A DNA stretch of 64,000 nt. It comes from Agarivorans aestuarii. GTDB lineage: Bacteria > Pseudomonadota > Gammaproteobacteria > Enterobacterales > Celerinatantimonadaceae. The notes beneath the pieces are model-generated. The model was given only the letters and a program-made list of their open reading frames with translations, was not told where the DNA came from and did not search any database. The translations under genes were made by a program, and so were the position numbers. Positions 18,815-58,441 of this stretch are shown in pieces. Every line of letters starts with the position of its first letter. Within the stretch, counting starts at the first letter, position 1. The stretch lies in NCBI RefSeq assembly GCF_019670125.1, contig NZ_AP023033.1, positions 2,779,001 through 2,843,000 on the forward strand, written 5' to 3'.

Positions 18815-19636
18815 TTAAACTAGAGCTAACGCAGCCTGTGGGCGTTGGTTTGCTTGAGCAAGAATCGAAGTACTAGTTTGTTGTAGAATCTGCGCTTTAG
18901 TTAAATCGGCAGTTTCTTTAGCAAAGTCAGTATCTTTAATTCGTGAACGAGCACCAGAGATGTTCTCTGAAATGTTAGACAAGTTACGAATGGTAGATTG
19001 GAATCGGTTTTGAACCGCACCCAATTCCGCACGCTCAGAGTCAACCAACTTAATAGCTGAATCTAAAGATGCCATTGCCGCACTTGCTCCGCCAACAGTA
19101 GATACTGATAATGAAGCTAGACCTAAGCCAGATGCTCCCCAGCCGCCTGAGCGAGAGATGTTCACACTGATGTTTTGACCAGCATTAGCACCCACTAGGA
19201 ATGCCGCTGAGTAGCCACCATCAAGAAGGTTAACACCACCGAACTGGGTAGTGGTAGCAACACGGCTCATTTCAAGCTTAAGTTGAGAAACTTCAGCTTG
19301 TAGTGCAGCACGGTCACTTGAGTTATTAATACCATCTTGAGATTGAACCGCTAACACACGCATACGTTGCATCATGTTAGTTAGCTCGTCCATCGCACCT
19401 TCAGCAGTTTGTGCCACTGAGATACCATCTTGAGCATTCATCACAGCACGGTCTAGACCCTGGATCTGAGATGTCATACGGTTTGAGATTTGTAGACCTG
19501 CAGCATCATCTTTTGCGCTGTTAATTCTGAAACCAGAACTTAAACGTTGATATGCAGTGTCTAATGTATTGCCTGAGCTTGATAGCTGGCGTTGTGCGTT
19601 CAATGACGACACATTGGTGTTGACAACTAATGCCAT
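18815..19636 (-). CDS. Flagellin (copy 1, downstream)
   Basis: A 273-residue flagellin that polymerises into the filament. The N-terminal D0/D1 helix is ALVVNTNVSSLNAQRQLSSS, with the TLR5-type segment LSSGFRINSAKDDAAGLQI, and the C-terminus is AQILQQTSTSILAQANQRPQAALALV. The variable D2/D3 domain is almost absent, as in short polar flagellins of Vibrio and Shewanella. The gene has a consensus sigma-28 promoter at 19783-19809, a ~140-nt leader and a strong SD (AGGAGG, 8 nt before ATG). It is very similar to the second flagellin at 20193-21017 and is a likely target of Maf glycosylation. Confidence 0.96.
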   Translation of the reverse strand: MALVVNTNVSSLNAQRQLSSSGNTLDTAYQRLSSGFRINSAKDDAAGLQISNRMTSQIQGLDRAVMNAQDGISVAQTAEGAMDELTNMMQRMRVLAVQSQDGINNSSDRAALQAEVSQLKLEMSRVATTTQFGGVNLLDGGYSAAFLVGANAGQNISVNISRSGGWGASGLGLASLSVSTVGGASAAMASLDSAIKLVDSERAELGAVQNRFQSTIRNLSNISENISGARSRIKDTDFAKETADLTKAQILQQTSTSILAQANQRPQAALALV

Positions 19637-19782
19637 ATTTTGAGCCTCCTAAGAAATTGTTCATCCTGATTGAACTGTGTCAGGACGACCAAAACCATTT
19701 GTTAGTTGTTGAACCCCTGGTCTATGAACCGTAAACCAAGACAACTTTGAAATGGACCAAAGTTTTAATAACTTCATATTAG

Positions 19783-19809
19783 TTAGCGGCAATGGAGGAA
19801 AAAGCTTTA
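19783..19809 (-). promoter_or_regulatory. Sigma-28 (FliA) promoter of flagellin 1
   Basis: On the minus strand: TAAAGCTT-N11-GCCGCTAA, one mismatch in each box to the FliA consensus TAAAGTTT-N11-GCCGATAA and exact spacing. The predicted transcript starts near 19776. Its leader holds a small hairpin aactttg/caaagtt at 19743-19764. Confidence 0.85.
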
Positions 19810-19968: not shown

Positions 19969-19985
19969 TTGGCACGTACATTGCT
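19969..19985 (+). promoter_or_regulatory. Consensus sigma-54 promoter pointing away from flagellin 1
   Basis: TTGGCACG-TACA-TTGCT matches the sigma-54 consensus at every conserved position, with GG (19971-19972) and GC (19983-19984) 10 bp apart. It points in the plus direction, opposite to both flagellin genes, and opens the RNA gene described next. A plus-strand GCCGATAA just upstream lacks a matching -35 box. Confidence 0.85.
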
Positions 19986-19994
19986 TTATTACAT

Positions 19995-20190
19995 TCGCAG
20001 CCTGAACCGCTGCGAAAAAAAGGCCAAGTGAGTATGCATCACTTGACCGTATCGCTCGAAACGATAGGAGATTGAGAGCGAAACTAAAGCGCTACTTATT
20101 ATTGGTATGGAATTGAGCCTCCTAAGAGTACTAATAGCGCTACTGCAGTCTGAGGACGGTGGATTGAACCCCCACCGTCCTTTCTTTTTT
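19995..20190 (+). ncRNA. Candidate sigma-54-dependent small RNA between the flagellins
   Basis: A predicted ~195-nt plus-strand RNA from the sigma-54 promoter to a strong terminator. I see successive hairpins at 19994-20016 (8-bp stem, 7-nt loop, at the very 5' end), 20025-20045 (7-bp stem), 20050-20066 (5-bp stem), 20088-20141 (7-bp stem with a long loop) and the terminator. The long loop contains ttgagcctcctaaga (20113-20127), identical in sense to 19640-19654 and therefore perfectly complementary over 15 nt to the SD region of flagellin 1 mRNA. No credible plus-strand ORF with a ribosome binding site lies inside. An alternative for the 15-mer is decay of a duplicated flagellin leader. Confidence 0.65.
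20154..20190 (+). terminator. Strong plus-strand terminator of the small RNA
   Basis: A 9-bp stem ggacggtgg/ccaccgtcc with a 9-nt loop followed by tttctttttt on the plus strand. On the minus strand no U-run follows the hairpin, so it is oriented for the plus-strand RNA, although it could also protect the 3' end of the flagellin 2 mRNA. Confidence 0.9.
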
Positions 20191-20192
20191 CA

Positions 20193-21017
20193 TTATCCAA
20201 GTAGAGACAGTGCAGCCTGAGGACGTTGGTTTGCTTGAGCCAAGATGGTTGTCGACGTTTGCTGAATAATCTGGTTACGCGTTAGTTCAGCAGTCTCTTT
20301 GGCAAAGTCAGTATCTTTAATTCGTGAACGTGCCGCGGTTACATTTTCAGAAATGTTAGACAAGTTACGAATGGTTGACTGGAATCGGTTTTGTACCGCA
20401 CCAAGCTCTGCACGTTTACCATCAATTTGCTTAATTGCAGAATCAATAGCTGTCATAGCTGCGCTTGCACCACCTACAGTCGATACCGACAAGGCACCCA
20501 AGCCAAGACCTGATGTACCCCAACCACCTGAGCGAGAGATGTTTACGCTGATATTCTGACCGGCATTTGCACCAACTAAGAAGCTCGCCGAGAAAGTACC
20601 ATCTAGTACATTCACACCACCAAATTGAGTGGTTGTAGCAATTCGGCTCATTTCAGCTTTAAGTTGAGAAACCTCTTGCTGCAATGCGATACGGTCGTCT
20701 GAGTTGTTAATACCATCTTGCGATTGGATGGCTAATACTCGGATACGCTGTAAAGAGTTAGTAATTTCATCCATCGCGCCTTCAGCTGTTTGCGCTAATG
20801 AAATACCATCTTGAGCATTCATTACAGCACGATCCAGACCTTGAATTTGCGAAGTCATACGGTTTGAAATTTGAAGACCAGCGGCATCGTCCTTTGCACT
20901 ATTAATACGCAAACCAGATGATAAACGTTGGAATGAAGTATCTAATGACCAGCCAGACTGTGTAAGTTGACGCTGGGCGTTAATAGATGACACATTAGTA
21001 TTTACGTATAAAGCCAT
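20193..21017 (-). CDS. Flagellin (copy 2, upstream)
   Basis: A 274-residue flagellin, nearly the same as the copy at 18815-19636 in the D0 and D1 helices, beginning ALYVNTNVSSINAQRQLTQS and ending QTSTTILAQANQRPQAALSLLG. It keeps the short middle SRSGGWGTSGLGLGALSVS and so lacks a large outer domain. Differences from copy 1 are spread through the gene, so this is an older duplication. Two sigma-28 promoters precede it (21097-21123 and 21201-21227). The SD is TAGGAGAA, unlike copy 1, so the antisense 15-mer in the small RNA is specific for copy 1. Confidence 0.96.
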   Translation of the reverse strand: MALYVNTNVSSINAQRQLTQSGWSLDTSFQRLSSGLRINSAKDDAAGLQISNRMTSQIQGLDRAVMNAQDGISLAQTAEGAMDEITNSLQRIRVLAIQSQDGINNSDDRIALQQEVSQLKAEMSRIATTTQFGGVNVLDGTFSASFLVGANAGQNISVNISRSGGWGTSGLGLGALSVSTVGGASAAMTAIDSAIKQIDGKRAELGAVQNRFQSTIRNLSNISENVTAARSRIKDTDFAKETAELTRNQIIQQTSTTILAQANQRPQAALSLLG

Positions 21018-21096
21018 GATATTTCTCCTATCTATATCTTAACCATTTATAGGTTTTATTAGTTGTCAGTTATTTTATGTTTCTGACTTAACCTAT

Positions 21097-30311: not shown

Positions 30312-30343
30312 CTCTCAATCTCCTATCGTTTTACTATTCTTTG

Positions 30344-31876: not shown

Positions 31877-31892
31877 AGCAAGAGCTGTGCCA
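31877..31892 (-). promoter_or_regulatory. Sigma-54 promoter of flgBCDE
   Basis: Minus strand TGGCACA-N4-TTGCT, a single departure from the sigma-54 consensus, with correct GG-N10-GC spacing. Predicted start near 31866, ~23 nt before the flgB ATG. Confidence 0.82.
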
Positions 31893-58366: not shown

Positions 58367-58441
58367 GTCCCCTTAGTTTAATGGATAAAACAAGAACCTC
58401 CTAAGTTTTAGATGCAAGTTCGATTCTTGCAGGGGACGCCA
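58367..58441 (+). tRNA. tRNA-Arg(CCU), complete copy carried by the mobile element
   Basis: A full 75-nt cloverleaf: acceptor GTCCCCT/AGGGGAC with G73 and encoded CCA, D arm GTTT/AAAC, anticodon stem AGAAC/GTTTT around loop CTCCTAA (anticodon CCT) and T arm GCAAG-TTCGATT-CTTGC. It differs from the interrupted host gene at several positions in the D loop, anticodon stem, variable region and T stem, so it is a diverged gene, not a recent duplicate. A promoter-like TTGGCG-N17-TACAAT followed by GC-rich GTGCGCC lies just upstream. Confidence 0.93.

Follow-up and report, generated by a model that had tools for sequence, protein, structure and literature searches.

Two flagellin genes lie on the minus strand of the flagellar gene cluster in the window (the whole 64,000-nt stretch of Agarivorans aestuarii DNA that was analysed), and the interval between them raises the question of whether it holds a regulatory RNA, on which strand, and for which flagellin. 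The initial annotation had proposed a sigma54-driven, structured RNA on the plus strand, carrying a 15-nt antisense to the Shine-Dalgarno (SD) region of one of the two. We compared the locus among 12 genomes from four genera of the window's family (f1) and with relatives in other families. At the level of sequence we could confirm the observation, which also proved more extensive than first described, the 15-mer being one contact among several. The features of the locus are:

18815-19636, minus strand: flagellin 1, 273 aa, the predicted target (ORF list)
19637-19778, minus strand: structured leader of the flagellin 1 mRNA, ~140-150 nt (leader alignment and consensus fold)
19783-19809, minus strand: sigma28-type promoter of flagellin 1, TAAAGCTT-N11-GCCGCTAA (pattern in 12/12 f1 genomes)
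19969-19985, plus strand: sigma54-type promoter, TTGGCACG-TACA-TTGCT (sequence read and pattern scan)
19996-20190, plus strand: predicted small RNA (sRNA), ~195 nt, its start placed by promoter spacing (fold, blastn and covariance model)
19997-20013, plus strand: hairpin H1 at the 5' end of the RNA, with UGAACC in its loop at 20003-20008 (fold and alignment)
20015-20048, plus strand: A-tract and hairpin H2, the hairpin at 20022-20048 (hairpin scan, alignment and compensatory pairs)
20052-20081, plus strand: hairpin H3, an 18-nt loop with the ribosome-binding-site (RBS) look-alike GAUAGGAGAU (fold and alignment)
20088-20141, plus strand: hairpin H4, which presents the anti-SD stretch (fold and alignment)
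20113-20127, plus strand: 15-nt antisense to the flagellin 1 SD (sequence comparison)
20154-20180, plus strand: hairpin H5, an intrinsic terminator followed by T-rich 20181-20190, with loop TTGAACCCC at 20164-20172 (sequence and alignment)
20193-21017, minus strand: flagellin 2, 274 aa (ORF list)

The elements of an RNA gene were found where the initial annotation had placed them. The sigma54-type promoter was read on the plus strand, opposite to both flagellins, and only two zero-mismatch matches to TGGCACN5TTGCW occurred in 64 kb: this one and a second at 31877-31892 on the minus strand, the sole other exact match of the window. Allowing as many as two mismatches made the pattern common in the window (48 matches vs 38 expected). 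The annotated hairpins, including the one at the 5' end, were recovered as H1-H4, and the annotated terminator as hairpin H5; H5 is missing from the hairpin scan because its 9-nt loop exceeds the scan's loop limit of 8. The T-run follows H5 on the plus side only. Both a promoter pattern and a terminator of its own, as looked for in a base-pairing sRNA, can thus be read in the DNA. The alignment of 12 relatives contained no credible ORF in the ~195-nt RNA, its gaps not being multiples of three. The flagellins have promoters of another type: a sigma28-type pattern was found upstream of flagellin 1 in 12/12 f1 genomes, with a leader of ~145 nt, and flagellin 2 has one too, by eye and in the window.

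Folding of the plus strand was better than that of shuffled sequence (z = -5.6; 0/200 shuffles as good), with z = -5.2 for the minus strand and f1 consensus fold energies of -45.1 for plus vs -51.6 for minus. Since both strands fold well, fold energy gives no strand, and we rejected it as strand evidence. Rfam 15 had no match at gathering score at the RNA, the only such match in the window being a tRNA at 58367-58438, and its matches on the RNA and its relatives were all far below gathering scores. MicX, whose gathering score is 75, reached 23.1 bits on the strand opposite the second Aeromonas RNA (L033, 883-1093, plus strand), probably by chance.

BLASTN found the RNA in 12/12 f1 genomes. All 12 likewise keep the promoter, the hairpins and TGAGCCTCCTA, the core of the anti-SD, the conservation on which the initial annotation had staked its reading. 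In the oriented alignment of the 12 f1 sequences, double changes occurred in 5/35 predicted pairs; compensatory pairs were found in H1 and H2, with A-U replaced by G-C in H1 of 2/12 genomes. The loops of H3, H4 and H5 were highly conserved. Blastn over 247 genomes of the order gave four short matches outside f1 (L100-L103); the two that were read, L100 and L101, fall within the coding parts of other genes and were rejected.

Two covariance models were used to follow the RNA beyond f1: R1, made from the 12 f1 RNAs, and R2, made from sequences of the type found in family f7 only (two of them from named loci) and containing no f1 sequences. Across 394 genomes of the order, R1 returned the 12 f1 RNAs and 10 weak matches, four of which adjoin flagellins, all in f7, and six of which do not. 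Within 39 f7 genomes R1 matched 29 places at E ≤ 1 in 20 genomes; 21 of these (13 genomes) adjoin flagellins, the best 20 all among them, and the remaining eight (L160, L162-L167, L175), with no adjoining flagellin, were set aside as chance. R2 recovered the f1 RNA, where it was already known to lie, in 10/12 f1 genomes (G002 and G007 missed), with E-values of 6.6e-6 to 6.9e-4 that, like all those of these custom models, are rough. R2 also matched 14 f7 genomes, adjoining flagellins in 14/14, five of them by construction since these genomes gave sequences to R2, and five matches in other families do not adjoin flagellins. The matches outside f1 and f7 (L141, L144, L145, L147-L149 with R1; L228-L232 with R2) had no flagellin in the stretch and were treated as chance. 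Run on 30 of 79 named loci, R1 matched Paraglaciecola mesophila, Glaciecola sp., Aeromonas rivipollensis and Aeromonas salmonicida.

The A-tract, H2 and H3 form a module common to f1 and f7. We distinguished two f7 types by eye, A and B, with L018 and L019 put in f7 by sequence type. The sigma54 pattern stood upstream of the RNA in 12/12 f1 genomes, 12/12 f7 type A RNAs and 3/3 Aeromonas loci, and in 0/8 of the type B RNAs; the pattern count and all later pair tests cover loci other than L150, L151, L170 and L156, the last of which is of type B.

Transcription of the minus strand is probable at this locus as well, since H2 and the A-tract, read backwards at 20048-20022 (minus strand), make a terminator-like site for the flagellin 2 mRNA; a scan for such sites gave 7 in 4.5 kb vs 3.9 expected. 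If the flagellin 2 mRNA ends at H2, its 3'UTR would be complementary to the part of the sRNA that follows H1, and the site at 20048-20022 would imply such a cis-antisense overlap. This is a probable correction to the initial annotation, whose interpretation is supported in part, by the conservation and by the further evidence for flagellin 1 as target given below. A rival account would make the minus strand the functional one: the hairpins would belong to a flagellin 2 mRNA 3'UTR that imitates the flagellin 1 leader, with its SD and GUUCA loops, and either has a regulator in common with that leader or titrates it. The terminator-like arrangement of H2 and A-tract, the keeping of the A-tract in both f1 and f7 and the equally good fold of the minus strand fit such an account. 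It has to contend, however, with a plus-facing sigma54 pattern kept in 27/27 f1, type A f7 and Aeromonas loci, with a T-run after H5 on the plus side only, and with the long H4 hairpin of f7, which uses plus-strand G-U pairs, although its structure was predicted on the plus strand. On this balance we hold the minus-strand account to be rather unlikely.

With a plus-strand RNA, the question becomes which mRNA it would meet. The candidate contact sites in the flagellin 1 leader are:

19640-19654, minus strand: SD region of flagellin 1, perfect complement of 20113-20127 (sequence read)
19671-19675, minus strand: third GUUCA motif of the leader, in a hairpin loop (motif count and fold)
19709-19717, minus strand: GGGGUUCAA, complementary to the loop of the terminator hairpin H5 (sequence and duplex)
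19725-19731, minus strand: CGGUUCA in an apical loop, complementary to UGAACCG of H1 (sequence and fold)

The 15-mer TTGAGCCTCCTAAGA was present, as claimed, at 20113-20127 and 19640-19654 and absent from the flagellin 2 leader. TTAGGAGGCTCA had only two exact matches anywhere in the genome, one at the flagellin 1 SD and one on the strand opposite this RNA; a 12-base part of the 15-mer had no third exact copy in the 4.69 Mb. Among the f1 genomes the core TGAGCCTCCTA occurred in 12/12 RNAs and, in antisense, in 12/12 leaders; the longer TTGAGCCTCCTAA was found in 12/12 leaders and 9/12 RNAs, those without it beginning ATGAGCC (G005, G007) or ending CCTAG (G004). The choice of flagellin 1 over flagellin 2 is borne out by further contacts. 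UGAACC stands in the loops of both H1 and H5 in 12/12 f1 RNAs and complements GUUCA or GGUUCA in the leader. There are exactly three GUUCA motifs in each flagellin 1 leader (12/12; mean of 0.36 in shuffled leaders) and none in 12/12 flagellin 2 leaders, and the consensus fold for the 12 flagellin 1 leaders leaves all 36 unpaired, the sites being an apical loop, a bulge and the last hairpin's loop. Duplexes between the H5 loop and the leader reached -12.1 to -14.6 kcal/mol in the 12 genomes vs -8.0 to -9.0 for shuffled leaders, and were equalled by 0-5/100 shuffles; the H1 loop duplex was weaker, with 0-25/100 shuffles as good, and often not significant alone. Complementary 6-mers between f1 RNAs and f1 leaders averaged 31.4 vs 15.0 shuffled, a count that 0/100 shuffles reached in 11/12 own-locus pairs and 1/100 in the remaining one. 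Covariation within the family is scarce because the contact motifs are nearly invariant inside a family. Complementarity that is conserved and above that of shuffles, as is looked for in a base-pairing sRNA, was thus found for f1 and, through the CCGAACACCC site described below, for Aeromonas, with a weaker case for f7.

We consider it likely, if well short of certain, that an RpoN-driven sRNA represses flagellin 1 through its SD region and through loop contacts, delaying this flagellin or setting the ratio of the two. RpoN polymerase would transcribe the sRNA divergently from the flagellin 1 promoter and stop at H5. The anti-SD stretch would cover the flagellin 1 Shine-Dalgarno sequence while the UGAACC loops of H1 and H5 meet the GUUCA loops of the leader. 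Ribosome entry would then be blocked, and flagellin 1 translation would stay low while the middle (RpoN) genes are active, or the flagellin ratio would be set. Repression could last until RpoN activity falls or until the flagellin 2 mRNA, which apparently ends at H2, titrates the sRNA by its complementary 3'UTR. Promoter pattern, terminator, conservation, complementarity at several sites and the way this complementarity differs between families are properties of the DNA itself; transcription, pairing in cells, repression and its sign, its timing and titration by the flagellin 2 mRNA we infer, drawing on what is generally known of flagellar cascades.

The effect could also run in the opposite direction. 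The RNA may pair with the leader and yet activate or stabilise flagellin 1, or mainly direct RNase III cleavage. The GUUCA contacts of f1 are 37-94 nt ahead of the start codon, binding so far upstream could in principle activate a leader, and part of the SD is paired in some single-sequence folds. The longest f1 contact covers the SD itself, however, and the f1 consensus fold leaves the SD stretch largely unpaired; we hold this alternative to be unlikely.

RNA and leader were also compared as partners family by family. The f7 type A RNAs carry a repeated loop, GGCCUCUCA, which faces GAGG motifs of the leader that is transcribed away from the RNA. Outside the SD, GAGG averaged 3.33 in the 12 f7 type A leaders vs 1.02 shuffled (0.42 in f1 flagellin 1 leaders and 0.12 in f7 flagellin B leaders), and GUUCA was nearly absent from the type A leaders (0.17). 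A loop duplex equalled by at most 5/100 shuffles was found at 8/12 f7 loci. Overall complementary 6-mers in f7 showed no excess (19.6 vs 18.6 shuffled). Total 6-mer complementarity gives no support to the f7 case, which rests on motif counts, loop duplexes and location. Three loci (L146, L174, L018a) are in the loop-duplex test and outside the f7 group of the 6-mer test, and the type B row of that test was dropped, its leader and RNA windows overlapping. The CUGGCCUCUCAACC stretch occurred in tandem, with three copies in L174 (G412) and two in L146 (G291), perhaps through selection for more binding loops. In 6/6 pairs examined, 7-10 nt of the type B RNA can pair with the SD region of the flagellin A gene in the same genome. 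Their loop CACUACCUCCUGGCG, or a variant of it, complements the SD of the other flagellin (L153, L155, L169, L171-L173, L156), and the adjoining flagellin B leaders, where read, contain repeated A-rich AAUAAUAA-like stretches, by eye.

In Aeromonas the RNA has UGAAC loops and CCGAACACCC. We took the stretches L186-L207 and L025, chosen around blastn matches to the RNA (17 genomes plus L025), and dropped 4 duplicates from 45 rows; a further match of this search fell in family f8 (G139). Among the resulting 41 distinct flagellin upstream regions, CCGAACACCC was present in the RNA and, in antisense, in the leader in 23, in neither in 18 and in one partner only in 0; the sigma54 pattern accompanied it in 21/23 regions with the pair and in 1/18 without. 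GUUC(A/G) averaged 3.74 in the 23 leaders vs 0.60 shuffled, and GAGG was raised there also (1.43 vs 0.78). The duplex at the CCGAACACCCC site, ~-22.5 kcal/mol vs -10 shuffled, was equalled by 0/100 shuffles in 3/3 loci tested, and one genome (G229) had CCCGAACACCCT on both the RNA and the leader side, which is one co-change. Complementary 6-mers between Aeromonas RNAs and leaders averaged 20.0 vs 13.1 shuffled, with own-locus pairs borderline (5, 6 and 7 of 100 shuffles). Leader motifs were fully unpaired in the consensus fold in 40/83 cases in Aeromonas and in 18/25 in the close f7 group.

Between groups, Aeromonas RNAs had 14.4 complementary 6-mers with f1 leaders vs 15.8 shuffled, while f1 RNAs had 13.6 with Aeromonas leaders vs 9.4 and 22.9 with f7 flagellin B leaders vs 15.4. 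The 6-mer specificity is therefore not clean, as the f1 RNA is in excess with these two sets of leaders as well. The motifs on both partners change between families, and architecture and place stay; base pairing between the two is the best explanation of this pattern that the sequences offer. Flagellin leaders of Pseudoalteromonas (L030, L032, L034, L036) and of Arsukibacterium and Rheinheimera (L035, L039) contain GGGGTA motifs, repeated in L035 and L039, and the SD GGAGGCTA; these leaders resemble another version of a multi-site leader. The flanks of these loci contained no RNA with UACCCC and an anti-SD.

Hairpin H3 stands apart from the antisense contacts, as its loop is of the same sense as ribosome-binding sites in the window:

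20059-20078, plus strand: 20 nt in H3 that equal the flgE ribosome-binding site in the same sense (sequence comparison)
21024-21032, minus strand: ribosome-binding site of flagellin 2, GATAGGAGA, 9 nt common to the H3 loop (sequence comparison)
30312-30331, minus strand: ribosome-binding site of flgE, AAACGATAGGAGATTGAGAG, identical to 20059-20078 (sequence comparison)

The loop reads GAUAGGAGAU in f1 and GUUAGGAG in f7 type A. Six f1 genomes share 20 nt between this loop and the flgE RBS, and the remaining six share 10-16 nt; identity with the flagellin 2 RBS covers 9-10 nt in f1. The next best match among 58 ORF upstream regions in the window was 10 nt. In f7 it shared 9-12 nt with the flagellin B RBS (six genomes). 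The idea that flgE of f7 also bears the H3 sequence was rejected, CGUUAGGAGA being absent from the nine f7 flgE leaders read (0/9), and none was found in L185. Neither the 12 f1 nor the 12 type A f7 RNAs had a start codon 3-12 nt past AGGAG; an ATG overlaps or abuts the AGGAG motif in G002, G007, L146 and L157.

As a hypothesis only, H3 could be a decoy for a factor that binds ribosome-binding sites. Taken further, the RNA might be mainly a decoy, its H3 copying the RBS of flgE and of flagellin 2 or B and titrating a translational regulator such as CsrA, with antisense pairing secondary. That H2-H3 is the module common to f1 and f7 speaks for this, as does the extent of the flgE identity. ANGGA is the best-known CsrA core, and many such loops typify sponges of the CsrB/RsmZ type, a feature that the f1 alignment of 12, by eye, did not show. 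The GGA of H3 is preceded by UA (UAGGA), so that the core is not kept around it, and the bases that precede the GGA ahead of the anti-SD vary. H3 and the flagellin B RBS did not change together significantly (permutation fraction 0.067 in six genomes, with one type B H3, L169, mis-picked), and the antisense motifs vary in step with the leader between families. A mainly decoy role is, on these grounds, quite unlikely.

The decoy and the repressor could instead be parts of one device, a tentative proposal that we put forward as no more than possible. The RNA would then be a two-armed switch, antisense to the flagellin A leader with one arm and, through H3, a same-sense decoy of the flagellin B/2 RBS (in f1 of the flgE RBS also) with the other. 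Under RpoN, flagellin A would be held down and flagellin B and hook freed, and the antisense 3'UTR of flagellin 2 would remove the RNA once sigma28 is active; the loop code would have been rewritten between families and the architecture kept.

That the locus has no function, being a remnant of a duplicated flagellin leader with back-to-back terminators, is very improbable: a duplication would leave stretches shared by leader and RNA, but the matches read are confined to short pieces of loop and SD that f1 and Aeromonas each conserve strongly, and in f7 RNA and leader both have a different repeated motif.

The ordering and dosing of multiple flagellins after hook completion are usually credited to sigma28 and its anti-sigma factor. 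An RpoN-made RNA that contacts the leader of one flagellin, as repression of flagellin 1 by the sRNA would have it, would add a direct post-transcriptional step, at Aeromonas, Paraglaciecola and Glaciecola loci as well as in the window's family. The locus is, besides, a natural experiment in how RNAs recognise each other through several loops, since from family to family RNA and target differ in concert.

A transcriptome of Alteromonas macleodii Te101, whose flagellins it names TE101_04960 and TE101_04970, reports 127 chromosomal sRNAs, none of them named at this locus in the text available (PMC5864184). Two RNA-discovery papers mention neither flagella nor the genera concerned in their main text, and no published description of this RNA appeared by title or abstract start, in a coverage that lies mostly outside subscription journals.

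Other RNAs share single aspects of the predicted one. The Vibrio Qrr sRNAs are sigma54-driven regulatory RNAs, alike in their sigma54 drive; the window region is without an Rfam family match at gathering score. Multi-loop antisense RNAs, such as S. aureus RNAIII with spa and coa and plasmid CopA with CopT, make loop-loop contacts and sometimes occlude the SD. Their loci and sequences are, by description, unrelated to the present ones, and here the loop motif varies with the target between families. In Campylobacter jejuni, CsrA and FliW reportedly control flaA mRNA post-transcriptionally, which is likewise control of a flagellin mRNA, with a protein regulator there and RNA pairing proposed here.

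Closer in function are small RNAs of the flagellar cascade itself. C. jejuni has two of these, FlmE (CJnc230) and FlmR (CJnc170), and in the available text of the source FlmE depends on RpoN through flgE, is mostly processed from flgE mRNA, represses flgM and Cj1387c, and raises flagellin when overexpressed (PMC11187230). The tie to the cascade and the link with RpoN would be common to both systems as that text describes them; unlike FlmE, the RNA predicted here is not placed for processing from a flgE 3' region, its gene lying between the flagellins with a promoter pattern of its own, and a flagellin is its predicted direct target (PMC11187230). E. coli UhpU, MotR, FliX and FlgO are described, again in the text available, as sigma28-dependent, UTR-derived sRNAs; overexpression of FliX lowers fliC mRNA and flagellin, its pairing with fliC has been footprinted, and MotR and FliX pair inside coding sequences (PMC10578931). 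They resemble the predicted RNA as sRNAs under a flagellar sigma factor, FliX also in acting on the flagellin fliC, and differ from it, by that description, in that the promoter here is of sigma54 type and the predicted contacts lie in the leader and SD (PMC10578931). Flagellar sRNAs are thus known with other promoters, origins and pairing sites, and the present RNA would differ from them in these respects.
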